Source: Symbiodinium sp. CCMP2592 (Eukaryota > Sar > Dinophyceae > Suessiales > Symbiodiniaceae). From it: 64,000 bases of DNA. Under the pieces are notes generated by a model. The model saw only the letters and a program-made list of their open reading frames with translations. It was not told where the DNA came from and did not search any database. The DNA is taken from positions 757,501 through 821,500 of the forward strand of contig CAJNDT010000125.1 of the NCBI GenBank assembly GCA_905221615.1. The letters are read 5' to 3'. Positions 5,346-57,477 of this stretch are shown here, piece by piece (the first letter of the stretch is position 1; each line of letters opens with the position of its first letter). Both the position numbers and the translations under genes were made by a program.

Positions 5346-5411
5346 GTTGGCCGGAGGCCGCCGATCTTCTGGAACGCATGGAGGGCTCGTCGATGAAGCC
5401 AGCAGCTGCAA
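5346..5411 (+). CDS. Exon-like segment, charged helix
   Basis: The segment follows CAG and one frame reads WPEAADLLERMEGSSMKPAA. The next bases are GCTATG, a possible GC donor. The composition is helix-forming. There is no homology I can name. It is one of a plus-strand series of such segments; alone it is weak. Confidence 0.25.
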
Positions 5412-5867
5412 GCTATGCGCCTTAGCAGGCATTTAGGGGCAAAGGCCGATAAACCCAAAGACCGTGCACCCGGAGCACTTTCACAGCTCTTTCAAGCCAA
5501 CACGCGTCTGCAGACCTGGACTGTACTTGGAGCTTTATTCTGAATTCCACTTGTCGGCGTGCTCTGCCTTCAGGCGGAACCACTAATTCTATGGATAGTC
5601 TCAACGGGACCCCAAAACAAAGGAGCCCTAAACCCCCATAGTAACCGATAGGAAACCCTTAAAGTAACCCTTAAAGGGACCCTGATTGCCTCAACAACGA
5701 GGCAGCTTGATTAAGGGTTACAGTCGTTTTAGCAATCCGAAGTTCATGTTTCAAGAGCTGGATCTAGTTTAGGGCTTAGGGTTTATAGGGTTTGGTTTGG
5801 GGTTCGAGGACTCCAGGGTTTCGAGATTTAGTTAAGGTTGTAAGGGCTGGCTCAGGACCCATGTCAC

Positions 5868-5935
5868 GGTTTAGGGTTTAGGGTTTAGGGTTTAGGGTTT
5901 AGGGTTTAGGGTTTAGGGTTTAGGGTTTAGGGTTT
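5868..5935 (+). repeat. Interstitial telomeric array (TTTAGGG)n
   Basis: About nine perfect TTTAGGG units lie head to tail. This is the plant-type telomere repeat, also used by dinoflagellates. Ordinary sequence lies on both sides, so this is not a chromosome end. Confidence 0.9.
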
Positions 5936-6670
5936 ATTTTCCTCCAGTGCTTTCCTTGTGTCCGAGCAAGTTCAGTTAGGACTCGGCACTGCATGTGCAA
6001 CCAGCACCCAACAAAAACCCACAACCCCAGATTGCCCCAAACGCATCATAAATAAAGCGTTTGTAACCACCGAGAATCAAAACTAGCGTCCTAAATCTGT
6101 AGTCACGTAGTCCTACTATTCTTCAGATTGCCTTAGCTTTACCTTTATTTGTAGTATAACCCCAGTAAAAGACTTGGTCCAATCATTCAGCCTCCTGTAT
6201 GGCTATATGAATCATGACAACATCCCAGCCGAGCCGTGTCCGGAAGTACGGAGTTTTTGTTGGGCACTTCTTAGCAGTCAGCTCTACACAAGAAATATCT
6301 AACCTGAAGATTCCATGAACAAGACCCCATAAAGGAGTTAAGGGCATAGGACGTGTTCAGGTTTAGGGTTCCAAGTTTCTGAAGCCCCCCCAAAGTCAAA
6401 GTTTTTTCAATCCGAAACTCTAAGAACCGAAACCCCAAACCCCATACATGCTTTTCAAACGGTTTAAGAAACAACAGTTTTTGTACAACTCGCGAGGCCC
6501 TGCATACAAATCACCCCAACGAACCTTAAAAACCTGCCCATCTGATTACACAACTTATGAAGCCTTACGCCCTGAAAACTCATAAGATTCATTCCCAGAT
6601 TGCAAGAACCCAAAGAAAATTTGTAAAGACTCTGCAAAACACTAAAAAATCAGAACATGCAGAGCATCCT
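5936..6670. other. No gene seen
   Basis: This is moderately AT-rich unique sequence with isolated degenerate telomere heptamers. No ORF of interest and no clear TIR element was found. Confidence 0.5.
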
Positions 6671-6674
6671 GCAG

Positions 6675-6786
6675 TCCTACAGCAAAAATCAAGCTACGAC
6701 CCGTTTCTCGAGGCTTTAGTTTTGTCGGAACTGGAGCAGCGTGCCGTCACGGGGCCCGAGCAAACACTCATGAGCCGTGCTTCTGG
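6675..6786 (+). CDS. Exon-like segment, charged helix
   Basis: The frame, which belongs to an ORF open from 6557 to 6814, reads FLEALVLSELEQRAVTGPEQ in its middle. CAG precedes it near 6674. The donor side is not clear. The peptide is coiled-coil-like with no recognised domain. Confidence 0.25.
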
Positions 6787-8920
6787 CTGCATCAAGGGCC
6801 CAGAGTTTGTCTAGTTTAGGGAAAAAAGAAACTTCTCTTCAGGGCTTTCTCGGGTTTGACGGCGTTCCTTTGTTTTTGTTCTATCTATCTGTCGTTGTAT
6901 ATGTATGTATATATATATATATATACATCTAGGCTTGTTACAGGAAGTTTTCAAAGCTGAGCTTTAGTGTTTCAGGGTGCAGGATTTCAGGGCTCCACAA
7001 TGTTCGGGTGTAGGGTTTCTGAGGCTCACAGGCTTCGGCGGCTTGCTTCAGCATGACGGCAACTAGCTGCACCCTATACAGTAAACCCCATAAAGTTGGA
7101 AACCGGCTGAAGGCCAAATAGTGCTTGGATTCCCTATACGTTGCTCTTAGGGATTGAGGCTACGGGGTTTCCAACTTTTGGGCTTCTACTGTAAGACCCT
7201 CCCTGTTAATTGGGGATCCTTGTTGTGATTTCTTTGTATCAGTCCGTAAGAAGGTAGGTTATTTGATTTGAAATCCATGTGAAGCCTATAGCTGGTATAT
7301 CTCAAAACTCTTTGACTATAAAATTAAAGCTCATCTCAACGCCCTGCAGCCTCGGGTTGTGTTTCAGAGTTTAACCCTTGACTCCACGCACTGACAAGCT
7401 GGGGAAATAGGTCAAAATGCTGGGAGTTTCCAAGGGCATGATTCGCAAATAGTTCTTAAGACTGACAGCTTCCGGTTCAGGGTCTAGGTTTAGGGGACCG
7501 TGAAACCCTGCATACGTTCGTACACATGTGTGTTGAGTAAAACCTCCCCAGACCAAGAACGTAATTGTCGCAGTCCTCCAAGTAGCGCTGGTTGCGACAA
7601 AACTCTTGTTGCCTGCACTAGTATCACCTACGGGGAGCCTTTTACAGCCCTTTCAACTCACAAGAACCTTACTCAACAATGGGACAGGAGCTTGAAGACC
7701 AAGTTCGGTTTTGATAAAGGTGCAAGAGCATGTACTTGTACAGTGTACAAATATCGTACATCTCCAGAAGCGCAAGTCCGTGGATTGACTGCTTGGCCTA
7801 GGTGTTTGGATCTACCTAGACCCTCAAATGTGGCACCCTTTCCCCTTTAACAGGATCCTACCCAAGGATTTGATTTTGCCCGAACATGTACAGGCAAGGT
7901 CCCTTTACAGTTAGGTCTCGGCTTTCAGCGGTCAGGGGTAGCTACGTCGGGCGACATAGTACCGGGGGGCTGAACGGCTGGTGAGGGTATCCCCTCACAG
8001 GCCCCATACGCTTATGCTACACTACTACACTATGAATTCCGAAACCAAAGGCCCTATCATCCCTAAACCCTCAATCCATCATCACTTATTCTAGCGCGGT
8101 CCAGTATGGGCTTGGCCGTGGCGCCCGAGCTTTATGTTTCCGGTTTATGCTTGTTGCAGCTCAACCCCTCGCAAGCTCAAACCCTGCCATAACATCAAAC
8201 CATCATACGATCCCGACATGACATGACATAGAATAGAGCCTTGTGAATGAAAAGGTTACAAATCGAATCGAACCCTGGAGAGAAGAGTTTTGGAATCCCA
8301 GAGCTTCCACGAACTTGTTCCAAGGTCTTTCTGCCGCCGCTGCCAAGACGCTCAGCCAACCGGCAACGGAAAATCGCTCGAACCCTGCGCCCAATAATCC
8401 TAAACCTTAAGCCAAAAACCCTTGCTTCGTGAAATAGATGTCTAACACGTCTGAGTCTCCACGACCCTAAACCTTAAACACTCAGCCCGGAACCTTACCT
8501 GGACCCAGAAGAATTCACCTACCTTCTTAGGTTTCCTTATCAAGAGTTCTCTTACATAAGTCCTCCAAAGAGTAGGTTATTTGGGGTTATGAGGTAAGCC
8601 CGAAAAGTCGAATTTGTCTGAGTCCCCGAGACATCCCTGAGTGTTCATGTTTCTTCCTTGGGGTGTGCAGTTTTCAGCACGTTAGGAAAACGTTTGGTCC
8701 GAGTCCATCTTGACCGGTATGTACCTGCCTGCCGCTATAAAAACATGCAGAGCTATGCGCATCTATGGTTGCAAGATTTACGGCTGAGACTGGCATGGTT
8801 GCTGTTCTTGCCGTTGTGGGGTCGTTTGTCTTCGGAGCCCCTGGCGGTGTAACGGGCTAAGGGTGTGCAGGCTTTCGAAACGAACCTGTATGCTAGCGTT
8901 GAGGTTCGACGGGGGCTAGC
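6787..8920. other. Gene-free stretch with dispersed repeats
   Basis: Contents include a TA microsatellite at 6895-6927 and two related repeats (family N) near 7190-7276 and 8505-8585, both ending in AAGRNGTAGGTTAT-like sequence. An ORF at 7500-7850 codes for 116 residues that I do not recognise and that lack repeat or domain signatures; I do not call it a gene. Confidence 0.45.
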
Positions 8921-8922
8921 AG

Positions 8923-8973
8923 GGTTTGCTAAGCGGCTCGAGGGGGCTGCTGAAGTCGAGCGGCAATTACGGA
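8923..8973 (+). CDS. Exon-like segment, coiled-coil composition
   Basis: The segment follows CTAGCAG and one frame reads FAKRLEGAAEVERQLRK, strongly helical with alternating hydrophobic and charged positions. The same ORF runs 8865-9047 but its end is a GA microsatellite. No donor is obvious. Confidence 0.3.
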
Positions 8974-8997
8974 AGCCACATTCACACAAGCTTGCTG

Positions 8998-9063
8998 GAA
9001 AAAGACAGAAAGAGAGAGAGACAGAGAGAGAGAGAGAGTGTGTGTGAGAGTGTGTAAACGTGT
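8998..9063 (+). repeat. GA/GT microsatellite
   Basis: Runs of GAGAGA pass into GTGTGT. Predicted peptides rich in RE dipeptides over this run are an artefact of the repeat. Confidence 0.85.
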
Positions 9064-11811: not shown

Positions 11812-13097
11812 AAGCACTCAAAGAGAGAACCTATCGAGGTATTGCTTCGAAGCAGTGGGATGGCTGGTGGGTGCTTTGCTGGTGGTCGCCGGCACACTCA
11901 GTTGGGGGTGCAGCATTGAGGGTTTAGGGTCAGGGTTTAGGGTTTAGGGTCAGATGGCTCAGGGTTTCGTTTGTGGTAGAGACTTTTTTTGCATGGTGTA
12001 GGGCTTGCAAGTCCAAAGTGCTGGGCTGTTGGGGGTTCTACTCTAGGGTTTGAGGGATTGTTGGGTTTATGGCGGTTTGCTTAGGGCTTCTTAGCAATCA
12101 TGAGATTCTGCCATTGCAACAGAACCAATGCAGAGCTGGAACATTAGATGCAGCAGCGAAGAGCTTCGCATGCTTTAGGTTTCAACAGCCGTGCTTGGGA
12201 AACATGGTCCCGCTTAATGTAGGAACCTGATTAAGAAACCTTGGGCCTATAATAACCCCAAAATAGTAGGATTCATATAAGGAACCCTAATCAAGGCCCA
12301 AGGTTTCGGCATCAGGTTCCCACATTAGGATTTAGAGCATGCTCATGATCACGAGCTTCGTAGCTTCTGAGTAGGACTGACTCCTCAAGACGTCCCTCAT
12401 CCTGTAGCAGTTCCAAAGTCCAAACACGATACCTTAGCTGGGTTTTGGGTACCTCGAAGCCCTTTCATTACGTACTTGGATCCCTCATAACAAGATGTCT
12501 GTTGTAAATTCGTCCAGTTTTGGGCAGGTAGGGAGTGCGAAGTAAGAGAATGCGAAGGGTGCAGTGCTAAGGTCTACAGAATTACGGTTTAGTGAAAATT
12601 TAGTGCTTGTGAGGTTGAGGGTTGGTATGGTTCAAGCTTTATGTTTGCGGTGTTGTGCGGTTTGTTGGGGCTTGCATAGGGTTTAGGGTCGGCCAATATG
12701 TATACAGGGTTTCGGGTTCATAGGGTTTTGGGCTCACAGGGCCAAGCGCTTGTAGGGTTCTGAAGCCCTGAAGCCTTAAACCCTAGACTCAGACGTTAAA
12801 CCCCAAACCCTAAAGCCTTGAAGCCGTAAGTATCAGAGGTGATCCGTATGCCTGCGTCCGCTTCGGCTGAAGCTCCAGCGATGGCCGTAGGATTCGGGGT
12901 CGTGCTCGAACGCCCGATCCCTCCCCCCCTCCCCAAACTCCTGAACTCGTAAACTCTAAGCCCTAAACTCATCAAGTGTAAATTACAACTGATTTGTTAG
13001 CACGCAAGTTCCAAGCAGCCGAGATGATCTTTTGCGCAGGCTACGAACATGCGTCTCTGAGCCCACCAAACGGACAGAACTCCGTGCCGACCGTGTC
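11812..13097. other. Gene-free stretch
   Basis: Apart from a family P element there are only scattered TTTAGGG and CCCTAAA heptamers and no ORF over 60 codons that I can support. Confidence 0.5.
12217..12332. mobile_element. Miniature TIR element, family P
   Basis: The ends are TAATGTAGGAACCTGAT and ATCAGGTTCCCACATTA, with an inner inverted pair AACCTTGGGCC and GGCCCAAGGTT. I see only this copy in the window. Confidence 0.7.
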
Positions 13098-13250
13098 CCA
13101 GAGACTCCAATACCCCTTAATTAATGAAGGAAACACCTCAAATTAATCTAGGATCCCTAATCTGATATAAGGATTATACCTTAAATTATTCTACGATTCC
13201 TAATATAATTTAAGGGATATTCCTGAATTAAGGGATACTGGAGTGTCGGG
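13098..13250. mobile_element. Miniature TIR element, family C, with long flanking repeat
   Basis: The ends are CCAGAGACTCCAATA and TACTGGAGTGTCGG, with an AT-rich palindromic core. The 16-base phrase CGTGCCGACCGTGTCC occurs immediately outside both ends, far longer than the 2 to 4 bp duplications of sister copies at 42824, 49825 and 56728. Confidence 0.75.
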
Positions 13251-13354
13251 GTTCGTGCCGACCGTGTCCAAGCATGGCACCCGGGCCACCTCCGCCGCCA
13301 GAGACAATCAGCTTCCATGGCTGGGCAAGGCTGCACGAATCTTGGCATCGATTT

Positions 13355-13490
13355 TGGGCTTTAGGGTTTAGGGCTTTAGTATTTAGGGTCTATAGGGTTT
13401 AGGGGTTTAGGGTTTAAGACTTTAGGGTTTAGGGCTTTAGGGTCTATAGGTTTTACGGGTTTATGGTTTAAGACTTTAGGGTTTAGGGCT
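13355..13490 (+). repeat. Degenerate telomere-like array
   Basis: TTTAGGG units alternate with variants such as CTTTAGGG, TCTATAGGG and TTTAAGAC. The phrase GACTTTAGGGTTTAGGGCT occurs twice, about 60 bp apart, indicating local duplication. Confidence 0.75.
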
Positions 13491-13515
13491 GAACGATTCT
13501 TGGCATCGGTATAAT

Positions 13516-13630
13516 GTAGGGGCCTCAATGATTAGAAAAGGGTTCTGGAGATCCCTTGTTATATTTGTATTATTATAGCTTATAAAATTAACCCCAAACC
13601 CTATTCTAATTATGAAGGCCCCTATATCAG
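13516..13630. mobile_element. Miniature TIR element, family L
   Basis: The ends are TAGGGGCCTCAATGATTAG and CTAATTATGAAGGCCCCTA. Related copies lie near 18660, 20694, 35770, 51190 and 54356. Confidence 0.75.
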
Positions 13631-14498
13631 GGCTTGCGGGGATTGGGGTTTGAGGGTTTAGGGAAGTGATTCATGGCCACGGAGTTTGGTGGTTTGGCAA
13701 GGATAGCGTCTATGTGTTTCAGCTATGTAGGTTGCAATCTTGTAATAGTATCGCACATACTACTCATACTACTGACACTGTAATGGTTAAGCTGTGGAAT
13801 CTTACAATCAGATGGAGACAGATGCAAAAGGAGGAGCTGTTTCCCCGAAGGCTACTCTAAACATGTCGCCAGCTTTCTGATAGCATACTGGCGTCAGGTT
13901 TTACGAAGATCAGTTCAACATGTTGTACACGTGCCGCCACAAGACTGCTTCAAACCCACTGCTGCCCAACGATGACATTCTGTGGCAGTATGCCTCCGGC
14001 CCGGGGAATACAGGCAACAGATCTGCATCCATAAAGTTACAATCTGTAGAGATGCCGGCTGACATGCACTTTGCGCCTTGAAGAAGCCTTGGTTGGCAGG
14101 CCCGATGCATTCAAATGTGTCATGAACCGTCAACAAGGGACCCTAAGTAGCTCTCACTGAGAAGAAGCAGTGGCTGATCCTGCTAGTATTGGTATTGCTT
14201 CTCCTGTCGGCACCTGGTGTTAGATAACCACGTCACTATTCCCCACTCACCCCAAGGGCCCCTCGAAAACGGCAAAGTCATCCCGAAAGCAGACAAGCGC
14301 ATTTGAGGAGTCGTCCTTCTTGCTGAAGGTCCAACAGAGTGCCAGGGTTAGAATCATGCATCCGCTTCGGGATACTGGGCTTCAGTTTGTTGATCTGTAA
14401 GTTTGCAGCTGACAGGGTTTGCAGAAACCATCTCTCGGAATCAGAAGCTGTTCCACCGGGTTCTGTCTATAGCACCTGTTGGTTTAGAAACGAGTCTA
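13631..14498. other. No firm gene seen
   Basis: Unique, less repetitive sequence. Short ORFs at 13666-13860 (+) and 13910-14136 (-) are not recognised. A hydrophobic stretch KKQWLILLVLVLLLLSAPG is encoded near 14163-14220 (+) but its ORF is only about 20 codons, so I leave it uncalled. Confidence 0.4.
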
Positions 14499-14588
14499 CC
14501 CTAAGGCTCCATAGTAGTTCCTTTTTAGGGTTCATACTTAGAATCCTATAAGGTATCCCCAAAAAGGAACTACTTTGGAGCCTCTGGG
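14499..14588. mobile_element. Miniature TIR element, family H
   Basis: The ends are CCCTAAGGCTCCATAGTAG and CTACTTTGGAGCCTCTGGG, with TA directly outside each end (14497-14498 and 14589-14590). Copies at 17043, 37938 and 44963 also have TA flanks. Confidence 0.85.
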
Positions 14589-14660
14589 TAGAGTTTAATC
14601 AGGGTTTACAGAGCTTAGGGATTGGGATTTAGGGTTAGGGTTCAAGGCATCCCTGACCTA

Positions 14661-14773
14661 CGGTAGAAGCCAGAAAGTTGGAACATCATTCTCCTCATGC
14701 CCTTCAGGTAAAGTATAAGGGATCCTAGCATTAATCCTCCTAAAGCCATGTTCCAACTTTCTGGCTTTTCCTG
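14661..14773. mobile_element. Miniature TIR element, family E
   Basis: The inner TIR is GCCAGAAAGTTGGAACAT with its reverse complement. TA duplications flank it at 14659-14660 and 14774-14775. Other copies are at 33781 and, nested, at 49036. Confidence 0.85.
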
Positions 14774-15194
14774 TACTGGAACTCACCTTCGGATTTGGCT
14801 CCTACATATAAATCCGTGGCACAAAGTTTGACCATAAACCCTAAGCCCTAAACCGTACTTAATTTCCTGGACCTTATCCAGGATAGGGGCAGCAATACGT
14901 AATTCGTTGAAATAGGGCATAGGCTCACATGACAGTAGTATACTTTTTCTAGCAGATGTTTAGAGACCATAAGGGGATGATGTTTTCATTTATTCTGGCT
15001 CATGTACAGTGGTCTATTCCAGGGTCACCGGTTCGTTTCAAGGCAGTTTTGCGATTCATAAATGAATAGAGGGTCTGCAGGGTTGTACGGTTCATAAGGC
15101 TTTACATTGTTTGTATGAAGCAGGGTCTCTCGCGGTTTGTCTGCATCACTGCATGCAGCTAGCGTGGGATTGGTCTAAGCGGGTTTGGATATCA

Positions 15195-15322
15195 AAGGGG
15201 CAAAGGAGGGTCCCTTGATGGGGACCCCTGCCCTATAATGGGCTATATAATGGGTATATAATAGCTATATTAAGGGTATATACCTAGGGGTCCTTATTAA
15301 GGGTCTCTCCTTTTACCCCTGG
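15195..15322. mobile_element. Miniature TIR element, family J
   Basis: The ends are GGGGCAAAGGAGGGTCCC and GGGTCTCTCCTTTTACCCC. The core has repeated GGGTATATAATAGCTATAT. A close copy lies at 26042-26171 and a partial one at 49652-49735. Confidence 0.8.
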
Positions 15323-16313
15323 AGGATATTTCGACTTCGGTAAAATACATCGCCTCAGGGCCTCATCTTCATCTCCTTCGGCCGGAGTGTAGGTGATTTG
15401 CTCGTGACTGTGAAGGTGATCCGGATTCGGAGCTGTGCTGCGCATGTTCGATTTTGAGTTTTAGTGTACACCCTTGGCTGAATGTTTTGTCTAGATTCAG
15501 CCGAACAGGTTCATCCCAATTTATATAATATGCCAGATGCGAGACCAGACAACCGCTCCACTCCCTAAGCCCTCAACACCCAACACTTTAAGAGTTCCAG
15601 CATGTTCCTGAAACCTAAACCCTAAACCCTAGACATTTGAGGGCCGTTCGCTTAGACATCTCTGAGGTACTGGGTTCCAGCGACTCATTGGCAACTACAG
15701 CAAGCTCTTCAGTGTGCCTCTGGACGACGACAATCTGCAAAGCTTCGCGGAGGTCAGAAGTCGTCTTGTGATCATGCCGATGATTCTTGTTACTATGACG
15801 AAAGTAAAGTTATTGCTATTCTTGTGTCGGATTTGCTTTATATACCGTTCATACTGTCAGTTTGAGTCTGAATATGTTTCTGCTTTGTGGGTTTGGTTGC
15901 AACAGTATAGGAGCTGTGACTGGTGGGTGAACTGCTTCCAAGCTCAGTCGTCTTGCCACCGTGGGCTGTTGACGAACTGTCTGGGGTCAATTTTCTCTCT
16001 GTGATGGGCTGATGGGCTTGATTCTATAATTGGGTTTTTTCGGAAGCGTTGCTATTCGGGTCTTTGAAGGCATTTGGGGTACATGGACTCGGGACAGCGG
16101 GACAGGTTTGAGTGTATGTGCTGTTTCGCGGGATGGGTAAGACCAGGCGTTTGGGTTCAGTGTTTGAGGGTTGCATCTTCTTCGATGGAAAAGAAACTCG
16201 TTCCGGTGCTCTACGGGAGCCGTAACAGGTTTTGTCCGCAGTAAGACCCATGGCCTTCGCCGTCAAGCCTGAACCCAAACTCTGCCTACTGCGACACTAT
16301 CCCCTCCATGCAG
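15323..16313. other. No firm gene seen
   Basis: An ORF at 15714-16004 (+) gives 96 residues with a hydrophobic middle (KVKLLLFLCRICFIY). I do not recognise it and cannot define exon edges. A few telomere heptamers lie near 15610. Confidence 0.4.
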
Positions 16314-16429
16314 GATGTGTGCCGCTGCTGCCTCAGCGAGGCAGACGATGCGATGTTCAACTCCGCATCACTGGAAGCGGCCCTTCAGGCCGCTCGTCTG
16401 ATGATGACTTTGAGGCTAATGCGATGCAG
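16314..16429 (+). CDS. Exon-like segment, Cys-rich start then helix
   Basis: The segment follows ATGCAG. One frame reads DVCRCCLSEADDAMF and then SASLEAALQAARLMMTLRL, with GCGACG (possible GC donor) after CAG at its end. It is longer than most of the series and open throughout. I recognise no domain. Confidence 0.35.
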
Positions 16430-16712
16430 GCGACGACCATGACGACGACGACGATGGGAGCAGGACAGTCAGGAGGCAAACCATGGTTCCCATGGTGATG
16501 ACACTGCCGTGTTCATGATCTTGGCAAACTGGTTGGTAGGAGGTTGGTAGGAGGATGAGTGGTAGTAGTCGTCGTCGCATCGTTGTTGTCGTCGGGGTCG
16601 TCGTCAGTCGTGCCGAGAAGGAGGAGCAGCAGAGCCATCACTGGTATGAGTAGGCACTGGTAACCCCACGTTTAGAGAAAACGGTTGTCCTGCCATGACT
16701 CACTTCGCAAAG

Positions 16713-16757
16713 GAGGTGGAGCATTACAAGCAGAAGCTGAATCTTTGCAACTCGCCT
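16713..16757 (+). CDS. Exon-like segment, coiled-coil composition
   Basis: Exactly 15 codons, EVEHYKQKLNLCNSP, lie between AAAG on the left and GTGCAC on the right. It could instead start at the in-frame ATG at 16695. The heptad-like pattern suggests a coiled coil. A similar charged run, AEKEEQQSHH, is encoded just upstream at 16612-16642, before GTATGA. Confidence 0.35.
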
Positions 16758-17042
16758 GTGCACATTGGCTTTGGCCTTTGCTGAGCGATGGCGTCTCAGA
16801 GCTTCAGAGTTGTGACAGGCATACTCCTGAAGTGGCTACTACTGCAGGGTCTAGAATCTAGACTTCCGCTTACTGGACACTCCCTGACTGTCGCACGACC
16901 TGTCGACAGTCGACAGTATCGAGTTCCGAGTTCACAGAGCCGTAGATACACACCTCAACTTTAGTCCGGACGATGCTCTAGCGCCGAAGCTAACGTTGTG
17001 AAGAGATCGCCTGCGACGGCTGGTCTATGGATCCAATAAATA

Positions 17043-17132
17043 GCCTAAGGCTCCATAGTAGTTCCTTTTTAGGGCTCATATTTAGAATCCTATAAGGTTT
17101 CCCCAAAAAGGAACTACTTTGGAGCCTCTGGG
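17043..17132. mobile_element. Miniature TIR element, family H
   Basis: Nearly identical to the copy at 14499 across its whole length, and flanked by TA at 17041-17042 and 17133-17134. Confidence 0.85.
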
Positions 17133-17574
17133 TATGCAGGAAGCATTTCTGTGCGATTCACGTCGGCTTTCTGGTTGGATTAGTGCAAACATACGCCTCA
17201 CAAGAGGATGTTCAGTTGTTTCCAGTAATTAGCCATGTCAACGACTCTCCGAGCTAAAGACAAATGGCCAACGAGCCGGACGTTAACCGGATAGGTGTAC
17301 AGAGCGAGAGAGCCCGACAGACCTTGACTTATATTATAGACTCGATCAGCGGTCACATGCACAACATAACGACAAGATAAACAACGTGGCTCGAAGATTG
17401 AGCCACCTAGTTACAACTGAACCACACTCCAGTAGCTAAAACCCAATACCCTAAAGCGGGTCAGTCATTGATACCACTCAAACTCTAAAAAAACCCTACA
17501 ACCCAAACCCGAAACACTTCCCTATCGCCCCAGAATACATAGAAACCAAAACCCTCAGAGAGGCAACTTGTCAG

Positions 17575-17662
17575 CCATGAAGCAGATCGCAGCCATGCGC
17601 GACGGCCATGAGTCCGATATGCTCAAGGCACCTCAGCATCTGGCATTCAAGCTTGCTGAAGG
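17575..17662 (+). CDS. Exon-like segment, helical
   Basis: The segment follows TTGTCAG. One frame reads MKQIAAMRDGHESDMLKAPQ and then HLAFKLAEG, and GT (GTTCAT) follows. The right edge coincides with the start of a family I element. Confidence 0.3.
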
Positions 17663-17767
17663 GTTCATGGGACTGAGTATCTGGACTTATAGATAAGGCA
17701 ACTTTTCCTATAGTTGATTATAACCCTTAAGCTACTTATAAAGTTACTAAGTCCCATGAACCTCCAA
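17660..17767. mobile_element. Miniature TIR element, family I
   Basis: The ends read GGGTTCATGGGACTGAGTA and ACTAAGTCCCATGAACCTCC. The AT-rich core contains TTATAACCC motifs. Other copies at 18276, 21873, 22927, 42607 and 58552 match these ends. Confidence 0.75.
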
Positions 17768-18130
17768 GTGGGGTTTGGGAGCTAGGGCTCCATGACTTTC
17801 GGACTTTCGGTTTTGAGGTTTGGCGTTTAGAGTTTACGGGCTTCGGATTTGAACTGGGATTGTTGGGGGGGGGGGGGGTGGCGGCTTTCTAGTTCGGGTC
17901 TTGGCTTTTTTTGGGAAAGACTGCTAGAACCCCAAAATAGCAGACCTTCAACTTTAAACCCAGAAACCCCCAATCCAAATTCCGAATCTCTTGTGTGCCA
18001 AAGCTCTGAAACCTAAACACAACTCCCTCAAACTCCCTACTGGCCCACTCCAGAACAAAAAAAATCCTAGAATTTTGATGGAGCCCGTAAGGGAAGCATC
18101 CTTTTTGAAGCCTTTCTTGCAACCTGGGAC

Positions 18131-18280
18131 ATGAGATTTCGTACGAGATTATGCAGCCTCAACAAAATCATAAGAAAGCCTCCTAAGACTCAGACACCTG
18201 CGTCCCTGGAGGACGACACCATCGTTTTTCATGAGCCGCTGCACTACATGGACGAGGCCCCTCCGCCTCCGTGTTCTTGG
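18131..18280 (+). CDS. Exon-like segment
   Basis: The frame opens at ATG and reads MRFRTRLCSLNKIIRKPPKT, TPASLEDDTIVFHEPLHY and MDEAPPPPCSW before running into a family I element. It is compositionally protein-like (basic, then acidic, then proline-rich). No homologue is recognised. Confidence 0.3.
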
Positions 18281-21527: not shown

Positions 21528-21590
21528 AGACAGAAAGGCTGATGCAAGAGGAGTGCGCTGGCCTCGATGAGTTGTTGGAGGTCTTGGGTT
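21528..21590 (+). CDS. Exon-like segment, coiled-coil composition
   Basis: Preceded by CCACAG and followed by GTCTTG. The open frame reads TERLMQEECAGLDELLE. A telomeric array lies immediately upstream where the intron would be. This is one of the better members of the series. Confidence 0.35.
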
Positions 21591-22657: not shown

Positions 22658-22705
22658 GTCCAGTCAGGCTTGGAGAAGGTGCGCGTGCAGAAGAAGGCGG
22701 TTCAA
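22658..22705 (+). CDS. Exon-like segment, coiled-coil composition
   Basis: Exactly 16 codons, VQSGLEKVRVQKKAVQ, are bounded by CCAG on the left and GTGAGG on the right. The basic, heptad-like pattern and the canonical splice dinucleotides make this one of the most credible small exons here. Confidence 0.4.
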
Positions 22706-23775: not shown

Positions 23776-23828
23776 GCTGGACCATCAGGAGAAGGAGAGC
23801 AGTCGCCTCAAAAAGGAACTCGAGGACA
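23776..23828 (+). CDS. Exon-like segment, coiled-coil composition
   Basis: Preceded by TGCGCAG and followed by GCTGTC, a possible GC donor. The frame, open from about 23748, reads LDHQEKESSRLKKELED, a strongly coiled-coil-like peptide. Confidence 0.4.
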
Positions 23829-23927
23829 GCTGTCGCTGTTGTTTTCATTCTTGTGGTATGTTCATGGTTTTTTGAGAAGAAATCGGCTCACGTGCTCGTG
23901 GTGCTGCATGTTTGTGTGTTGTGTGTG

Positions 23928-27035: not shown

Positions 27036-27110
27036 CGATTTGCGCTTGCAGTCGATGTAGGTTTCTTGGATGTTTGTTGTTGTTCCTGGCCGTGGTTTCT
27101 CCCCAAGGGT
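27036..27110 (-). CDS. Exon-like segment inside the 197-bp repeat
   Basis: On the minus strand, 25 complete codons (TLGEKPRPGTTTNIQETYID, then CKRKS) lie between CAATTTAG on the 5' side and GTATGG on the 3' side, a canonical AG...GT arrangement. In the right-hand copy of the repeat the same peptide is joined in frame to the retroelement ORF. It may be a host exon or the element's own leader. Confidence 0.4.
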
Positions 27111-27220
27111 CTAAATTGTCTCAGGTAGTACATATATATGTATATACATACTCATTTATCTATGTATGTTTCGGTGGTAAACTTCCTACTTTAAAGTCCT
27201 TCCTTCAAGGCCACAGTGTA

Positions 27221-27233
<13 letters not shown>
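27037..27233 (-). repeat. Left copy of identical 197-bp direct repeat
   Basis: Base for base identical, as far as I can read, to 33116-33312 and in the same orientation. Both end in a TA microsatellite on the right. The copies bracket the retroelement ORFs. Confidence 0.9.
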
Positions 27234-27260
<27 letters not shown>

Positions 27261-27322
27261 GCATTTTCTCGCATTTGGGGCATAGACTCCATGTTGGTTG
27301 CAGCCCTTTGAGCTTGCATTAA

Positions 27323-29461: not shown

Positions 29462-29475
29462 CCATGTGGCATCTG

Positions 29476-34425: not shown

Positions 34426-34485
34426 AAGGAGAGCTTAGAAGAGCTGCGCGATCTGTCCGAGAATCAGACGCTTCGCCGCAAAAAG
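34426..34485 (+). CDS. Exon-like segment, coiled-coil composition
   Basis: Preceded by GGCTCAG. Twenty codons read KESLEELRDLSENQTLRRKK, one of the most coiled-coil-like peptides in the window. The bases after it (GATCTT) would be a non-canonical GA donor. Confidence 0.35.
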
Positions 34486-35269: not shown

Positions 35270-35315
35270 GAAAGCCCAGATCGAGCAGCAACAGATGGAA
35301 ATCGATGCTCATCAG
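35270..35315 (+). CDS. Exon-like segment, coiled-coil composition
   Basis: Preceded by TACTTTCAG (good acceptor) and followed by GCGCCC (possible GC donor). The frame reads KAQIEQQQMEIDAHQ. It starts 11 bp after a family S element ends. Confidence 0.35.
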
Positions 35316-35876: not shown

Positions 35877-35950
35877 TCGCACCTGCTAGCCCTTCAGACT
35901 TCCTGTCCCCGGCTCCGACTCTCACTTCGGAGCTTCTGCGAGCCAGGCAG

Positions 35951-36008
35951 TGATTGAACGTCAGCAGCGCGACATGCAGCAGCAACGAGAGGAGCGAGAT
36001 GCAATCAG
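35951..36008 (+). CDS. Exon-like segment, coiled-coil composition
   Basis: Preceded by CCAGGCAG and followed by GTATAG after CAG, a textbook donor. The frame reads IERQQRDMQQQREERDAI, a glutamine- and arginine-rich coiled coil. Confidence 0.4.
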
Positions 36009-36249: not shown

Positions 36250-36309
36250 TCCCTTTCGAAGGAGTCTCGGCGCTTGTCTGAGGAATTGGAGCTGCAGAAG
36301 GAGGAGGGG
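36250..36309 (+). CDS. Exon-like segment, coiled-coil composition
   Basis: The frame reads SLSKESRRLSEELELQKEE. Splice signals are not clear. A further short helical frame (LPQDLNPDALKDMPCKQDQ) lies upstream at 36150-36205. Confidence 0.3.
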
Positions 36310-36459
36310 GGAGGGATCGCAAGCCTGTTTGGCGCTGCACTTTTGGAGCTGATGTGGTCTTTTCGCTAAGAGGTTAAGGTTAGCAACCACTAGGGACGAT
36401 GATCCCGCCGCTTTAATAACTCTGAAAGCCCCACAAGTAGATCCCTACACTATAGCTAA

Positions 36460-38027: not shown

Positions 38028-38076
38028 TAAGCACAAAGCAAGGTCCCATGGCCTATAAGTGTTTCTTCGCAGCAGC

Positions 38077-39402
38077 ATGTCGATCGCCGTCGAAGTCTCG
38101 CTGCTGAGCGGCAAGACAGCTACCGTGCAAATAGGCTTGGATGAGGAGGTGAAGGCATTGACACTTCAAGCTCAGATCTATCTCGGGGTTGCGAAAGGGA
38201 GGCTGCTGGACTCTTCTGGAAGTGTTCTGGATCCATCTGCAACGATCAAGCATACCAATCTACATAGTGGCGATGCATTGACCTTGCACGTATCTAAAGT
38301 TCAGGTCCAAGCCACTGGTTACGCTTTTGCTGCCGTTCTTGGTGATGGATCCGTGGTGACGTGGGGCCACTATCAAGGCGGTGGTGACAGCAGCCCGGTG
38401 CAGGATCAACTCAAAGACGTGCAGCAGATCAAAGCCTCTGACAGTGCTTTTGCTGCCCTTCTTAGCGATGGATCTGTCGTGAGCTGGGGTTACCCACGCT
38501 GCGGCGGCGACAGCAGTGCTGTGCAGGATCAGCTGAGCAATGTGCAGCAGATCGTCGCCTGTAGCAGCGCTTTTGCTGCCGTTCTTGGCGATGGATCTGT
38601 GCTGACCTGGGGTCTTGCTGAATGTGGTGGTGACAGTAACGCTGTGCAGCATCAGCTGAAACATGTGCAGCAGATCCGAGCTTCTGAGGGCGCCTTTGCT
38701 GCGATTCGCGTCGATGGATCTGTCGTAACATGGGGTGATGATGAGTATGGTGGTGACAGTAGTGATGTGCAGCTTCAACTCAAGAATGTGGAGGAGATTC
38801 AAGCCTCCAGTCCTGCTTTTGCTGCCATTCTAGGCGACGGATCGGTCGTGAGTTGGGGTGATGCTGATTTTGGTGGTGACAGTAGTGCTGTGCAGGATCA
38901 GCTGAAGACTGTGCAGCAGATCCAAGCCTCTTACTACGCTTTTGCTGCACTTGTTGGTGATGGGACGGTCGTGACCTGGGGATCGTGTTCGTGTGGCGGC
39001 GACAGTAGTGCTGTGCAGGATAAGCTGCAGAATGTGCAGCAGATCCAATCCTCTCAGGATGCATTCGCTGCCATTCTCGCCACTGGATCCGTCGTCACTT
39101 GGGGAGATGATATCAACGGCGGTGACTGTAGCCGCGTGCAGCATCAACTGAATGAGGTGGAGCAGATAGTGGCTACTGACAATGCCTTTGCTGCCATTCT
39201 CCGCGATGGATCTGTCGTCACCTGGGGTGCTGCTGACGATGGGGGTGACAGCAGCATCGTGCAGGAGCAGTTGAAGAATGTGCAACAGATCCAAGCCACT
39301 CGCAGTGCTTTCGCCGCGATTCGCAGTGATGGGTCCCTTATCACCTGGGGTGCTGCCGAGTATGGTGGTGACAGTAGTGCCGTGCACGAGCAGATTAAGT
39401 AG
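38077..39402 (+). CDS. Ubiquitin-like / RCC1-like repeat protein, paralogue 1
   Basis: The 441-residue protein starts at the ATG of MSIAVEVSLLSGKTATVQ, because the ORF upstream of it has no ATG and the paralogue at 62367 starts at the same place. Residues 1-76 look like a ubiquitin-like beta-grasp domain ending in HSGDALTLHV. Nine tandem repeats of exactly 41 residues follow (123 bp each), with the consensus AFAAILGDGSVVTWG, then a variable quartet, GGDSSAVQDQLKN and VQQIQAS. The GDGSVVTWG core resembles RCC1-type propeller blades, but the repeat is shorter than the usual 51-68 residues. Related dinoflagellate proteins are often annotated as HERC- or RCC1-like; a binding or scaffold role is inference. 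The gene is intronless as read. It ends at the ninth repeat without the membrane anchor of the paralogue. Confidence 0.85.
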   Translation: MSIAVEVSLLSGKTATVQIGLDEEVKALTLQAQIYLGVAKGRLLDSSGSVLDPSATIKHTNLHSGDALTLHVSKVQVQATGYAFAAVLGDGSVVTWGHYQGGGDSSPVQDQLKDVQQIKASDSAFAALLSDGSVVSWGYPRCGGDSSAVQDQLSNVQQIVACSSAFAAVLGDGSVLTWGLAECGGDSNAVQHQLKHVQQIRASEGAFAAIRVDGSVVTWGDDEYGGDSSDVQLQLKNVEEIQASSPAFAAILGDGSVVSWGDADFGGDSSAVQDQLKTVQQIQASYYAFAALVGDGTVVTWGSCSCGGDSSAVQDKLQNVQQIQSSQDAFAAILATGSVVTWGDDINGGDCSRVQHQLNEVEQIVATDNAFAAILRDGSVVTWGAADDGGDSSIVQEQLKNVQQIQATRSAFAAIRSDGSLITWGAAEYGGDSSAVHEQIK

Positions 39403-40294: not shown

Positions 40295-40333
40295 AGAGGC
40301 CGCCGAAGCGCTTCGAGATCAGCTCAGCCAGTC
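40295..40333 (+). CDS. Exon-like segment, coiled-coil composition
   Basis: Preceded by TTTCGTCCAG and followed by GTACCT. The frame reads EAAEALRDQLSQS. Both edges look like proper splice sites. Confidence 0.35.
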
Positions 40334-40444
40334 GGTACCTTGCCATTACAAGCAGATCTGTGTTGATATGTCTGTATAGGGTGCTTTCAAAACAATCCTG
40401 TGTGCGGTTGCAGGCCGGTGATTATGCGGCTTGAGGTCCCTAAA

Positions 40445-41106: not shown

Positions 41107-41166
41107 GGTTTTCGATCCGGAGGAAACGACAATCAAGGAGCTCCATAGAGAGCTGCCTGGCTGCAA
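41107..41166 (+). CDS. Exon-like segment, coiled-coil composition
   Basis: Preceded by TATAG (with TTCAG five bases earlier) and followed by GTGGGA. The frame reads FDPEETTIKELHRELPGC. Confidence 0.35.
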
Positions 41167-41832
41167 GTGGGAGTTGAGGGGTTTGGGCTTCAGGATTGGC
41201 CGGGATCCTGAATCCTAAACCCTAGATTTCGTCTATATATAATTCTATATTCATTGATTTGTTTACTTGTCTGAACACATGTTGTCACCAAAAGTGCATT
41301 TTTCGGTGGTTCGCATGCTACCTGGTCTGCGTGAGTGTCAGGGAGAGATTCGCTGCATGTATCCGACAATTGTTGGGGCACAGTACTCCGGCAAACAGCT
41401 GCCATCGTGGAACGTCCGAAACATTTCGAACAACCCTAAACTCCCAGGCCCAACGGCCATCTTTTGGACAAGCCGGAGGATCCGATAATGTATGATACGG
41501 ACAAGACTAGCCTCTAACTAACCATGCCATCGTGGTCCATGTGCACATCTAGCCTTATACTTGCTCCGGAAGTAGGTGTATACACTCTATACCTATGAAA
41601 TTCAGCATGAATATATATACATACATATGTATATACACATACACACAGGTATTAGGTTTTCAAGGTCAAGGATAAGAGAGCATGTGTACATGTGTATAAT
41701 GCATGTATAGAGAGACAGAAAGTATGTGACCAAAGATTAGACACGCTCTGCAAGGCGACAGTATATCTTAAACCCTAAGCCTTAAACCCTAAACCCTAAA
41801 CCCCTAAACCCCAAAGCTCTGCATGGGTAAAC
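41167..41832. other. No gene seen
   Basis: Short ORFs at 41190-41495 are unrecognised. A mixed TA/CA microsatellite lies at 41615-41655 and a CCCTAAA cluster at 41773-41808. Confidence 0.45.
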
Positions 41833-43025: not shown

Positions 43026-44729
43026 TTCTGAGTTTGGTGCTTCCCCCATTTCTTTTTCCATTGCATGAGGGTCGGATTTGACCTCCGCCCGAAGGGGCCT
43101 CCATCCTGGAAAAAACACCAATTCCCCGAAGCATTTGCAAAAACAATGGGAAAGAATGTAACCAAAAATGGAAAATGAATGGAGCCAAAAATGGAAGGAA
43201 CAATAAAAGATGGATCGGGGCTGCACGGGGACTGGGAAAAACTGAACAAAAAATCAGATGCCAAGTGCACCCTCCAACCAAATCGGAAAGACGTTGAAGT
43301 CAGAACGCAACGGGATTCCAATCCCGTTTTTCCCCAATGTTTTCCATTGCGTGTTTGATTGCCTTAGTGCCACGATTCCATTTGCAATCTCAAAATAGTC
43401 CCATTATTTATTATTTCCCGAGATAATAGCGTTCACAGGACCGGGACATCATGAGGGTAAAGCCCATGGACCCTAAGGGCTATACTCCGAAAGACACACT
43501 TGCCCCCGAAACCGTGCTGCAGCAAGTGTAGAGTTAGAATTCGTGGCTCGGGCTCATGCGGTTGTCTCCACAACAAATGAAAACACAGTCCTCTACGCCT
43601 AAAGCCGTAAACCGCCACCTCACCATTCACCATTAACTCTCAAGCGAAACCCAAGTCCCGAAATGGAACCGACAGCCGTAAACTATAAGGCTTAGTAAAT
43701 CGAGGGTATAGGATTTTTGGGGGGTTGGGCTTTTTACTCTCCCAAACCCTACGTCTCCATGTTCCAACATAGCATATACTCAGGCCTTGGCGGGAATTCT
43801 GTTTAGGCTAAACTATACCCTAAACCCCTAAACCCTAAACCCTAAACCCTACCATATGCATATAGGAGCGTGGAGACTCAGGGAAAACCTCTCAGTGTTC
43901 AGGATCACGAACTTGACACGCAGCTGGCAAGAAGAGCAGATCAAAGTTGCAGGGCTCCAGGAGGAGGGATCTACAGGGGGTTCCTTTAAAAGGGATCTAT
44001 AGGGCTTCATAGGGTTCCTTTAGAAGGGTTCCATAGGGTTTAGGGTTTTGGATCTGCTTTCTTTCACCAACTCCCATGTTTAATGGATCTTGGGATTTCG
44101 ATTTCACGGTTTGAGGTTTGAGATCTGGTTTCTGGGAAGGACACGGCCGACGAAACTTCCATGTATCTATACTTGTATCTACTATTATGGAAGTAGGCCT
44201 TAACAGACCACCCCCATTATGGTTTTGGGAAGTTTTGGGAACCTACTTCCACAATAGTAGTCTATATGGACCCTCTTGGATTTATTTATAACCCTTCTAG
44301 GGCCTTAGGGTTTAGGCTTTTGGGTTTAAGGGTTTGGGTCCAGGTTTCAGGGTGTAGAATTTAAGTTACTTATACCTGTATTACTACATCCCACGAACTT
44401 ATTAGTTATGGTTTAGGTTTCTAGGTCTAGGGCATAATCCCACGCACGTTCAGGGCCTCTTGGTGTACTGAGGCTAATCGGACCCCTTTTGGCAAGGATC
44501 TCAGAACTTTTTCCTGTAACTTTCCGAAGGTACACAGGTAGCTGAGTAGGTAGGCTGCAGCGGTGTGTAAGGATCGTCCTAAGGACTGAACCTAATCTGT
44601 CAAGTGTGCAGATTTGGGGCTCATGTTTTACACCTTGAGCGTCAGCAACCCGTAGCTTAATACCCGAAAACCACGCGAAGGTTGAACGCCGAACCCGTAA
44701 ACCTTAAGTCCTACTTAGAAATGTTTGAG
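43026..44729. other. Mostly gene-free stretch
   Basis: Contains a TIR element at 43745-43885 (TCTCCATGTTCC paired with the region near CGTGGAGACTC, with CCCTAAA units inside) and another at 44158-44285 (TACTATTATGGAAGTAGG paired with CCTACTTCCACAATAGTA). A possible helical exon frame, DHELDTQLARRADQ, lies after TTCAG at 43902-43943 (+). Minus-strand ORFs at 42861-43321 and 43433-43633 are not recognised. Confidence 0.4.
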
Positions 44730-44797
44730 AGGAGATCGCAGAAGAGCGCTCTGTGAGCAACGGCCTGCGTGGCGAGATCGGACAGCTGCAGTTGGAG
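44730..44797 (+). CDS. Exon-like segment, coiled-coil composition
   Basis: Preceded by TTTGAG and followed by GTCGGT. The frame reads EIAEERSVSNGLRGEIGQLQ and then LE, a clear heptad-like helix. Confidence 0.4.
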
Positions 44798-46460: not shown

Positions 46461-46500
46461 GCCCAAGCTCGGCAAGGAGAGCTGGCCGAGCTGCAGTTGC
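46461..46500 (+). CDS. Exon-like segment, coiled-coil composition
   Basis: Preceded by GGTACCAG. The frame reads AQARQGELAELQL. No GT donor follows directly. Confidence 0.3.
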
Positions 46501-48866: not shown

Positions 48867-48962
48867 GCTCTGCAAAGGCTCTGCCATGCAGCGCTGCAAG
48901 AGGAGGCAGAGGCTCTACGCGCGGAGCTTGCTCGAAGGATCCTCGACGAAAAGATTGCTCGG
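48867..48962 (+). CDS. Exon-like segment between two TIR elements
   Basis: Thirty-two whole codons lie between CCAAAG on the left and GTGTTT on the right. The peptide (LQEEAEALRAELARRILDEK in its middle) is an excellent coiled-coil candidate. A family F element ends 9 bp upstream and a family D element begins 8 bp downstream, so almost nothing but this segment survives between the two insertions. Confidence 0.45.
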
Positions 48963-49760: not shown

Positions 49761-49824
49761 GAACAACACGCTGACTTGCGAGACGCAGACGGAGATCACC
49801 GGCGCTCAGACACTGAGCTTGAAT
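49761..49824 (+). CDS. Exon-like segment, charged
   Basis: Preceded by TTCTACAAG. The frame, open from ATG at 49746, reads EQHADLRDADGDHRRSDTEL. It runs directly into a family C element. Confidence 0.25.
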
Positions 49825-51710: not shown

Positions 51711-51786
51711 CCGAAGAGCCCTCTGAGGATGGACGAAGAGGCAGCGGAGACGCAGAGGCTTAGAGTCATGATCGAGGACGCAGCAG
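51711..51786 (+). CDS. Exon-like segment, coiled-coil composition
   Basis: Preceded by CAATCAAG and followed by GTTCCT after GCAG. The frame reads PKSPLRMDEEAAETQRLRVM and then IEDAA. Both splice dinucleotides are present. Confidence 0.4.
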
Positions 51787-52536: not shown

Positions 52537-52619
52537 GAAGCCTCATCTGAGCCATGAAAGACAGGAGATGCAGATGAAAGTCCGGGATGTGCTGGAGCGA
52601 TTTAGGCGCCGATTCGGCA
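52537..52619 (+). CDS. Exon-like segment, coiled-coil composition
   Basis: Preceded by CCTTACGCAG and followed by GTGAAG. The frame reads SHERQEMQMKVRDVLERFRR and then RFG. The ORF continues past the GT for another 30 codons, so the donor is only a possibility. Confidence 0.4.
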
Positions 52620-52884
52620 GTGAAGCCAAAGAGCTTTGCAGAGACTCTTGGCACACACTGCCACGCCCAGCATGCCACCAAGTCTTCCTAAACACCCAAA
52701 CTCTGAACCATTTATGTGGCCTTCTCTAACCTTCTTCACTAAATTCAGTGCATCTTTGTCGCAATGAAGGCCAAAAACCCTTGAGGTCAGGGAGGGCCTT
52801 TAGGGTTGCCTCTTTCAGGGTCGAAGCTGGTGAGGCCTTGCTTTTTGAAAGCATCTCAGCCCGACGCCCTCACCAAGTATGGTT

Positions 52885-52990
52885 GAGGGTTTTGGGCTTA
52901 GGGTTTAGGGCTTAGGGTTTAGGGCTTAGGGTTTAGGGTTTAGGGCTTAGGGTTTAGGGTCTAGGGTTTAGGGCTGAGGGTTTAGGGCTT
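52885..52990 (+). repeat. Alternating telomere-variant array (14-bp)
   Basis: TTTAGGG and CTTAGGG heptamers alternate, giving a 14-bp higher-order unit over about 100 bp, with occasional TCTAGGG and CTGAGGG. Confidence 0.85.
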
Positions 52991-53048
52991 AGGGCTTCGA
53001 TCTGAAGGTCTGTTTGGGCCAACCCCAAAAGAAAGTCTGCGGACAAGG

Positions 53049-53909: not shown

Positions 53910-53999
53910 ATGGACATGTAAACCTGGATCCCGATTTGCAACTGCCTAAGGACATGAACTTGGAGGAATGGCTGCGCAGCTGGGAAGCAAAGACGGCTG
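53910..53999 (+). CDS. Exon-like segment
   Basis: Preceded by ATCTAAAG and followed by GTTTCG. The frame reads GHVNLDPDLQLPKDMNLEEW and then LRSWEAKTA. It is protein-like but I recognise no family. Confidence 0.4.
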
Positions 54000-54920: not shown

Positions 54921-55011
54921 GAGAAGACACAGCACTCCAGTGCCTCTACGACGACTGCTTAGCGCGTGTGGATCTCTTGGAGAAGCTGCGCGACAAGGTC
55001 TCTGGGGCTTG
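54921..55011 (+). CDS. Exon-like segment, coiled-coil composition
   Basis: Preceded by GATCTAAG and followed by GTAAGC, the strongest donor in the series. The frame reads EDTALQCLYDDCLARVDLLE and then KLRDKVSGA. Confidence 0.45.
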
Positions 55012-55545: not shown

Positions 55546-55599
55546 GTGAAGAAGGAGCGTTCGAGGCTGGGGATGTCGGATCCAGACGAGGCTTGGACG
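55546..55599 (+). CDS. Exon-like segment, charged
   Basis: Exactly 18 codons, VKKERSRLGMSDPDEAWT, lie between CCACGAAG and GTTTTG. Confidence 0.35.
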
Positions 55600-56466: not shown

Positions 56467-56727
56467 CCCAGCCCGACCTTCTCCCTGCTTTCAGGTTGTC
56501 CTGGGTTTCAGGATAATCGAGTCCTTGGGGTTCACGGTTTCGACCAAAATCTAGGTGGCCCAAGGGTTTAGGGTTTAGGGTTTAGGGGAAACTGTTTAAT
56601 TTCCCTTATGGTTCCTACAGAGGTCCTATTCCTAAATACTTTTCAGAGCCCCAAAACTACAACCCAGAAATGTATGCCGTGGTCTTTGATTTGAGAACAG
56701 CAACGCCTACAGCATGCTCAGGAATGC

Positions 56728-56837
56728 TGGAGACTCCAATATCACTGATTCAAGGAATATACCGTCAATTATAATAGGATCCCGAATATGATTTAAGGAA
56801 TATTCCTTAATTATATAAGGGATATTGGAGTTTCCGG
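56728..56837. mobile_element. Miniature TIR element, family C
   Basis: TGGAGACTCCAATATC pairs with GATATTGGAGTTTCC around the GGATCC-containing AT-rich core. Confidence 0.8.
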
Positions 56838-56898
56838 AAAGCCTCTTTAACACCCCGGTTGACAGGGGTACGCCAGATCATGGAAAGACAGGCCCTAA

Positions 56899-57012
56899 CC
56901 CTAAGGCGCCATATGCCCATATAGTATAAGCTTAGGCCTTAAAGTACCTATACAGGGACCCCTCTAAGGCTTCAGTTTCTTTTCTACTATAAAGGTACGT
57001 GGAGCCTTTGGG
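56899..57012. mobile_element. Miniature TIR element, family D
   Basis: The ends are CCCTAAGGCGCCATATGCCC and GGTACGTGGAGCCTTTGGG, with TAA outside both ends. Confidence 0.85.
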
Positions 57013-57224
57013 TAAGCCTCAAGCCTCACAGGCTCAAGCTTTAAATCTCGATGGCGTGCAAGAACTAGCCCCTTGCAACCTTGTAGATCCCAACCCCATA
57101 GGCCCATGTAAGCCTTGTAGTATCTTGCAAGCTGCAAAACCCCGAAGCCTTTGACCTTTTTGCGCCACAAAGACTCTAGACCCTAAAAGCCCGTATCATC
57201 CGGCCCTCAAGCAAAGCCCATGTA

Positions 57225-57225
<1 letters not shown>

Positions 57226-57273
<48 letters not shown>
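57226..57273. repeat. TA microsatellite
   Basis: More than 20 uninterrupted TA units. Confidence 0.95.
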
Positions 57274-57274
<1 letters not shown>

Positions 57275-57431
57275 CCCATACGGCCCTGGGAAAGGCCTCC
57301 GTGCTTGCCACAGTCGGACGGAGCGACCTCAGAGGCGGAGTGGTTGAGCCTACGGGTCCGGCATCCTTGAATTGCAGGGCTCCCTTAACGGGTTTAGGCT
57401 TTAGGTTAATCCGGTTCAAAGGTCCTGTAGC

Positions 57432-57477
57432 AGCTCACACGAGGTGCTGAAGGACTTGCTTGACGATGCCTTTCAAG
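57432..57477 (+). CDS. Exon-like segment, helical
   Basis: Preceded by CTGTAG. The frame reads SSHEVLKDLLDDAFQD and then stops. The donor is not clear. Confidence 0.25.

Follow-up and report, generated by a model that had tools for sequence, protein, structure and literature searches.

Small plus-strand candidate exons in a Symbiodinium contig and the orientation of telomere-like tracts around them

The stretch studied here comprises 64,000 nucleotides of contig CAJNDT010000125.1 of the dinoflagellate Symbiodinium sp. CCMP2592 (the window). It carries ankyrin-like exons near its left end, a retroelement, two RCC1-repeat genes, many foldback elements, tracts of telomere-like heptads of the CCCTAAA or the TTTAGGG type and a series of small exon-like segments on the plus strand, which is the subject of this report. 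An earlier note had read about 30 such segments as tiny exons, most simply of a single very long coiled-coil gene or a few such genes; its quoted peptides, its four segments of whole codons and its first segment, at 5346, were checked. The three quoted peptides are encoded on the plus strand at 34426-34485, 48894-48953 and 35953-36006, the last one 2 bases off the start at 35951 given for it. Three segments (16713-16757, 22658-22705 and 55546-55599) consist of whole codons between AG and GT as described. The fourth, 48867-48962, does not: position 48867 is preceded by AAA and the AG ends at 48867, which places the exon start at 48868, inside a codon.

Segments running from AG to G[TCA] were scored as exons with a codon table and general amino-acid frequencies. 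The codon table was derived from four open frames of the same window (2041-3444, 4554-4982, 38059-39402 and 62328-63884), and the other single-exon genes, the retroelement, simple repeats and exact heptad runs were masked before scoring. The training frame 4554-4982 was left unmasked and adds 26.1 (generic priors) or 22.0 (published priors) to the plus total; without this exon, the plus chain still exceeds the minus chain and every shuffle. Two sets of priors were used, one generic and one with splice frequencies published for Polarella (PMC10666404), both without retraining; an iteratively retrained model drifted to one-base exons within TTTAGGG arrays and was discarded. The main automated list, obtained with the published priors, holds 31 plus candidates with a score of at least 2 beyond 5.6 kb, and the matching minus list 17 candidates beyond 5.6 kb, 8 of which overlap plus candidates.

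One strand carries a coding signal above chance, as a spliced dinoflagellate gene should. With the published priors, the best exon chain scored 171.1 on the plus strand, 77.4 on the minus strand, 76.1 on the reversed and 53.6 on the complement sequence, compared to 41.7 ± 9.1 (maximum 66.8) in 100 shuffles; candidates scoring at least 1 numbered 45 on the plus strand, 19 on the minus strand and 13.0 on average in shuffles. With the generic priors, the plus chain reached 153.6 and the minus chain 82.4 (60 shuffles: 36.9 ± 9.2, maximum 68.1). Windows of 15 residues classed as coiled-coil-like by a composition rule were found 32 times on the plus strand and 18 times on the minus strand, and 16.8 ± 4.0 times (maximum 28) on the plus strand of 100 dinucleotide (block) shuffles. 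An equal frequency of such peptides on the minus strand and in shuffled sequence, the outcome that the earlier note named as refuting the series, was not found, as the plus strand exceeds both in coiled-coil windows and in exon chain. The claimed excess of plus-strand peptides stands, with the restriction that, given 16.8 windows in shuffles, about half of the individual plus windows are chance. Likewise, from the ratios of plus candidates to those of the minus strand and of shuffles, 30-40% of individual plus candidates may be false. No clear overlooked exon was found in 13 inspected stretches near tracts, and an Rfam search returned nothing at gathering thresholds.

The less expected part of the finding is the orientation of the telomere-like tracts around the exons, whose order is still unexplained. 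Within 120 bp upstream of the 31 plus candidates, a CCCTAAA-type tract is present in 10 and a TTTAGGG-type tract in none; within 120 bp downstream, TTTAGGG-type tracts occur at 9 and CCCTAAA-type tracts at 3 of the 31, and random windows hold tracts at 0.16 and 0.15. Taken singly these counts are modest (upstream, p 0.019 for CCCTAAA and 0.0065 for TTTAGGG; downstream, p 0.034 for TTTAGGG and 0.25 for CCCTAAA). In the same list, none of 3000 circular shifts reached the upstream association at either 60 or 120 bp, and at 250 bp its p was 0.0007; the downstream association had p values of 0.0097, 0.001 and 0.006 at 60, 120 and 250 bp. Adding a pyrimidine preference (n=26) gave p 0.0007-0.022 upstream and 0.010-0.046 downstream. 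The upstream association also held in 43 coding segments that were called with no use of splice signals (0 of 2000 shifts at 60 and 150 bp, p 0.0065 at 300 bp) and in the generic-prior list (n=42; 0 of 2000 at 60 and 150 bp, p 0.012 at 300 bp). At 20-50 bp upstream of 30 curated exons, CCCTAAA-type density per 100 positions was 12.6, compared to a window mean of 2.27; TTTAGGG-type density at 20-50 bp downstream was 8.4, compared to 2.28. The upstream value was reached in 0 of 2000 shifts (60 and 150 bp), and downstream p was 0.001 (60 bp); since these exons were chosen by eye, the automated sets weigh more.

A CCCTAAA-type tract upstream and a TTTAGGG-type tract downstream are the nearest neighbours of 16 of the 31 plus candidates, a context that makes up 19% of inter-tract sequence (p 5e-5); with stricter thresholds the counts were 12/31 against 0.16 and 6/31 against 0.10. 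This order was not seen around the 17 minus candidates, and in two further minus lists (n=22 and n=29) no tract-orientation p was under 0.05 (lowest 0.054). Outside the tracts, plus candidates are surrounded by a weak keto skew, with p 0.0085 for 10-150 bp and p 0.10 for 10-60 bp. The dinoflagellate telomere unit is TTTAGGG, and the tracts resemble interstitial telomeric sequences in being telomere-type repeats inside chromosomes; they differ from them in being sorted by orientation around exons, and for mammals insertion of such sequences at double-strand breaks has been described. No such arrangement appears in the excerpts at hand of the literature on dinoflagellate introns, introners and telomere-like repeats, which does not prove its absence there.

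The median length of the 31 plus candidates is 86 bp, a value partly set by the model. All of 29 hand-set exons start after AG, 24 of them with AG|G, and 9 have 3' ends off G[TCA]. In Polarella and three Symbiodiniaceae, mean lengths are 99-120 bp for exons and 486-1408 bp for introns, AGG acceptors make up 96-97% and donors are GT, GC or GA (PMC10666404). With these intron-rich genes the window would have small exons and long introns in common, and it may also share their acceptor (AG|G) and donor (GT/GC/GA) types, to which the automated sites conform by construction. It differs in that the (TTG)n repeat, dominant in Polarella, is absent from its tandem-repeat list, and in its telomere-like tracts by exons, a feature unmentioned for Polarella and Symbiodiniaceae genes in the portions of those sources available. 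Exon size and AG|G acceptors suit a dinoflagellate, but the scoring model favours both. The TTTAGGG-type heptads, the single-exon RCC1-repeat genes at 38059 and 62328 and the series on one strand likewise give the window a dinoflagellate look.

Table 1. Candidate exons and other features of the window
Position	Strand	Feature	Remark
4370..5427	+	ankyrin-like exons of upstream gene	possible last exon from 5346 with TAG; Ank_2 match
12839..18272	+	scattered candidate exons, mostly non-coiled-coil	e.g. 15681-15752, 16314-16388, 17563-17662, 18157-18272
16713-16757	+	segment from the earlier note	inside the 12839..18272 group
21538..21580	+	candidate exon LMQEECAGLDELLE	CCCTAAA array 13 bp before
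22658..22705	+	candidate exon VQSGLEKVRVQKKAVQ	abuts CCCTAAA-type tract upstream; automated start 22668
23776..23831	+	candidate exon LDHQEKESSRLKKELEDS	
27037..33312	-	retroelement, endonuclease-type open reading frame (ORF)	between two identical 197-bp direct repeats
34426..34485	+	candidate exon KESLEELRDLSENQTLRRKK	uncertain 3' end
35270..35315	+	candidate exon KAQIEQQQMEIDAHQ	GC donor
35947..36008	+	candidate exon AVIERQQRDMQQQREERDAI	acceptor ccag|G, donor CAG|gtatag
36262..36320	+	candidate exon ESRRLSEELELQKEEGG	uncertain 3' end
38059..39402	+	single-exon RCC1-repeat gene	possibly nested in intron
40297..40334	+	candidate exon AAEALRDQLSQS	outside automated (published-prior) list
41107..41180	+	candidate exon VFDPEETTIKELHRELPGCKWELR	
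43866..43948	+	candidate exon, ambiguous frame	abuts CCCTAAA array upstream
44732..44797	+	candidate exon EIAEERSVSNGLRGEIGQLQLE	
46461..46498	+	candidate exon AQARQGELAELQ	outside automated (published-prior) list
48868..48962	+	candidate exon LQRLCHAALQEEAEALRAELARRILDEKIAR	foldback element end at 48861, 6 bp upstream
49761..49814	+	candidate exon, ambiguous frame	
51728..51786	+	candidate exon MDEEAAETQRLRVMIEDAA	flanks: CCCTAAA-type 51604-51710, TTTAGGG-type 51857-51928
52537..52605	+	candidate exon KPHLSHERQEMQMKVRDVLERF	
52819-52881	+	hand-picked exon	TTTAGGG-type tract 52882..53002 just downstream
53951..53999	+	candidate exon DMNLEEWLRSWEAKTA	upstream extension to 53895 possible
54921..54997	+	candidate exon EDTALQCLYDDCLARVDLLEKLRDK	
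55546..55599	+	candidate exon VKKERSRLGMSDPDEAWT	CCCTAAA-type tract on one side, TTTAGGG-type on the other
57444..57482	+	possible last coding exon VLKDLLDDAFQD, then TAG	
at 59256	+	further candidate	possibly ending in TGA
62328-63884	+	second single-exon RCC1-repeat gene	
22306-22404, 42605-42728, 46575-47158, 48750-48861		foldback elements	examples

The coiled-coil composition had been claimed for the whole range and is limited to about 20-56 kb. The share of E+K+R+Q in automated candidates is 0.19 at 5.6-20 kb (n=13), 0.41 at 20-27 kb (n=3), 0.35 at 33-38 kb (n=3), 0.33 at 40-56 kb (n=9) and 0.17 at 56-62 kb (n=2), with one more candidate outside all bins; the candidates at 5.6-20 kb may be part of another gene. 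For amphipathic periodicity in 22 hand-picked peptides, p was 0.027 with a period of 3.5 residues and 0.030 with one of 3.6, which is weak evidence of helical heptads. Nor does the series appear to start at 5346: this segment reads WPEAADLLERMEGSSMKPAAASYAP followed by a stop and adjoins ankyrin-like exons at about 4.4-5.0 kb (Ank_2, E 0.00046 with a hand-joined peptide, below the curated cut-off), and it fits an upstream gene rather than the coiled-coil series.

Combined, the strand bias, the excess over shuffles and the tract orientation make it probable that most of the plus-strand segments are genuine small exons and belong to one or more spliced dinoflagellate nuclear genes. These genes would be transcribed from left to right, with putative introns of about 0.2-8 kb that contain foldback elements, telomere-like heptads and simple repeats; the exons at 20-56 kb would encode a helical, coiled-coil-prone protein and those at 5.6-20 kb would not. 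The earlier proposal of very long coiled-coil genes with small exons is partly supported: the strand bias, the shuffles and the flanking tract orientation speak for small plus exons and long repeat-rich introns, and very long coiled-coil genes, one or a few, are only possible.

Several observations weigh against reading the segments as exons. Joining the segments in consistent phase, followed by a profile search, had been proposed as a check, and neither part supported the series: rotated phases chained as well as the actual exon phases (p 0.945-0.96 in each of 4 ranges, in a test of low power where exons are missed), and joined peptides matched no Pfam family above the cut-off (lowest E values 0.092 and 0.11), while the top hit among solved structures had an E of 0.49. 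Donors are GC in 26 and acceptors AG|G in 31 of the 31 automated candidates, with priors that favour both, and the means reported for Prorocentrum (240 bp for exons, 4709 bp for introns) and Amphidinium (185 bp and 3732 bp) deviate from the small-exon pattern (PMC10666404). The minus-strand exon chain likewise lies above shuffles. The downstream tract association is weaker in segments called without splice signals (p 0.07-0.20) and in the generic-prior list (p 0.10-0.14), and minus candidates have a keto skew at 10-60 bp (p 0.017, tracts masked). Only 3 of the 31 plus candidates have another copy within the window, compared to 81 of 200 intronic 80-mers (Fisher p 0.0005), but so do 0 of the 17 minus candidates; coding-like segments of both strands avoid repeats and single-copy status consequently does not mark out the plus series.

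The missing homologues, the phases that do not chain, the equally single-copy minus candidates and the half of coiled-coil windows expected by chance would all fit if the segments were not functional exons but remnants of ancient genes or open frames that arose by chance among the repeats. We consider this unlikely in view of the strand bias, the scores above all shuffles and a tract orientation seen only for plus candidates.

Among readings that accept the exons, it is quite unlikely that one coiled-coil gene spans the entire finding, with the retroelement and the RCC1-like gene within its introns. The plus-strand bias throughout, the composition of the 20 to 56 kb candidates, the nested genes of Polarella and the possible last exon with TAG at 57444-57482 agree with it; the non-coiled-coil candidates at 5.6-20 kb, the stop in the segment at 5346 and the phase chaining do not. 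The coiled-coil part covers at most about 20-57 kb. Most likely, the series reflects the ordinary gene architecture of a dinoflagellate, one long coiled-coil gene being unproven.

Both the retroelement and the RCC1-like gene would sit within introns, as insertions or as nested genes. Of the genes predicted in Polarella glacialis CCMP1383, 8.4% lie inside introns of other genes (PMC7245778), so that an intronic position would not be odd for either. The retroelement encodes an endonuclease/exonuclease/phosphatase domain (E 3.7e-11). Terminal repeats such as its direct repeats are unusual for a LINE-type element. The N-terminus of the RCC1 gene at 38059-39402 gave a weak ubiquitin-like match only (E 0.18), and no confirmed relative of the RCC1-like protein was found among viral contigs. 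The plus-strand open frame 2041-3444 (467 residues) matches an NYN domain with an E of 9e-5, which falls slightly short of the curated cut-off. Foldback elements are short, often about 95-125 bp, and belong to several families; viral and prokaryote contigs contained no exact copy of a word from a foldback element. Exact CCCTAAA arrays were present in 18 viral-contig stretches (L001-L018), three of which (L001, L014 and L015) have three CCCTAAA matches each in 28-bp steps.

The tracts may bear on splicing. CTAA is found 8-50 bp upstream of 16 of the 31 plus candidates against a background of 0.20 (p 8e-5), of 7 of the 21 tract-free plus candidates against 0.13 (p 0.014), and of 2 of the 17 minus candidates where 0.19 was expected. 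This enrichment suits a branch-site role, and the upstream CCCTAAA-type tracts probably act as branch-site-like sequence. TTTAG|G in TTTAGGG units resembles an acceptor, and the absence of TTTAGGG upstream is therefore expected under selection against decoys; TTTAGGG-type tracts would be kept out upstream of acceptors. In this genome the heptad arrays could be splicing landmarks sorted by orientation, CCCTAAA giving repeated CTAA upstream of acceptors and TTTAGGG (unit G|GTTTAG|G) being tolerated after donors and purged before acceptors, a proposal we regard as doubtful. In a bolder form, introns would have arisen at gene breaks that were capped on both sides with telomere repeats and rejoined, which, if true, predicts the order exon-TTTAGGG...CCCTAAA-exon.

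An introner origin, like the repair of telomere-capped breaks, would produce the same tract orientation. The introns would then derive from inserted introners that carry the tracts as their terminal inverted repeats, with TTTAGGG at the 5' end and CCCTAAA at the 3' end, an account of intron origin that is compatible with real exons. In Prorocentrum cordatum and Amoebophrya, introners have been reported to carry an inverted repeat at either end (PMC10666404 among the sources), and foldback elements are plentiful in the window, one of them ending 6 bp from an acceptor. As in the introner elements of Amoebophrya, Prorocentrum cordatum and Polarella, repeats at the ends of putative introns and inverted-repeat elements inside them are present. 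Here, however, the tracts consist of telomere-like heptads and vary in length, and the two ends of one intron are not better matched than ends taken from different introns (mean 8.8 vs 10.1, p 0.97; 26 of 29 putative introns, three shorter ones omitted, with less power where exons are missed). Gaps from CCCTAAA to TTTAGGG tracts are not shorter than the reverse (p 0.22-0.52, likewise with less power where exons are missed), and an introner origin appears quite improbable. Since same-intron ends have no special match, RNA pairing between them is unsupported as a general explanation.

Provided that the exons are real, the window illustrates how large the intron share of a dinoflagellate gene is. 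Dinoflagellate 5' splice sites are weakly conserved and the mode of their recognition is open (PMC4201569), which is a reason why the orientation of tracts around the exons deserves follow-up.

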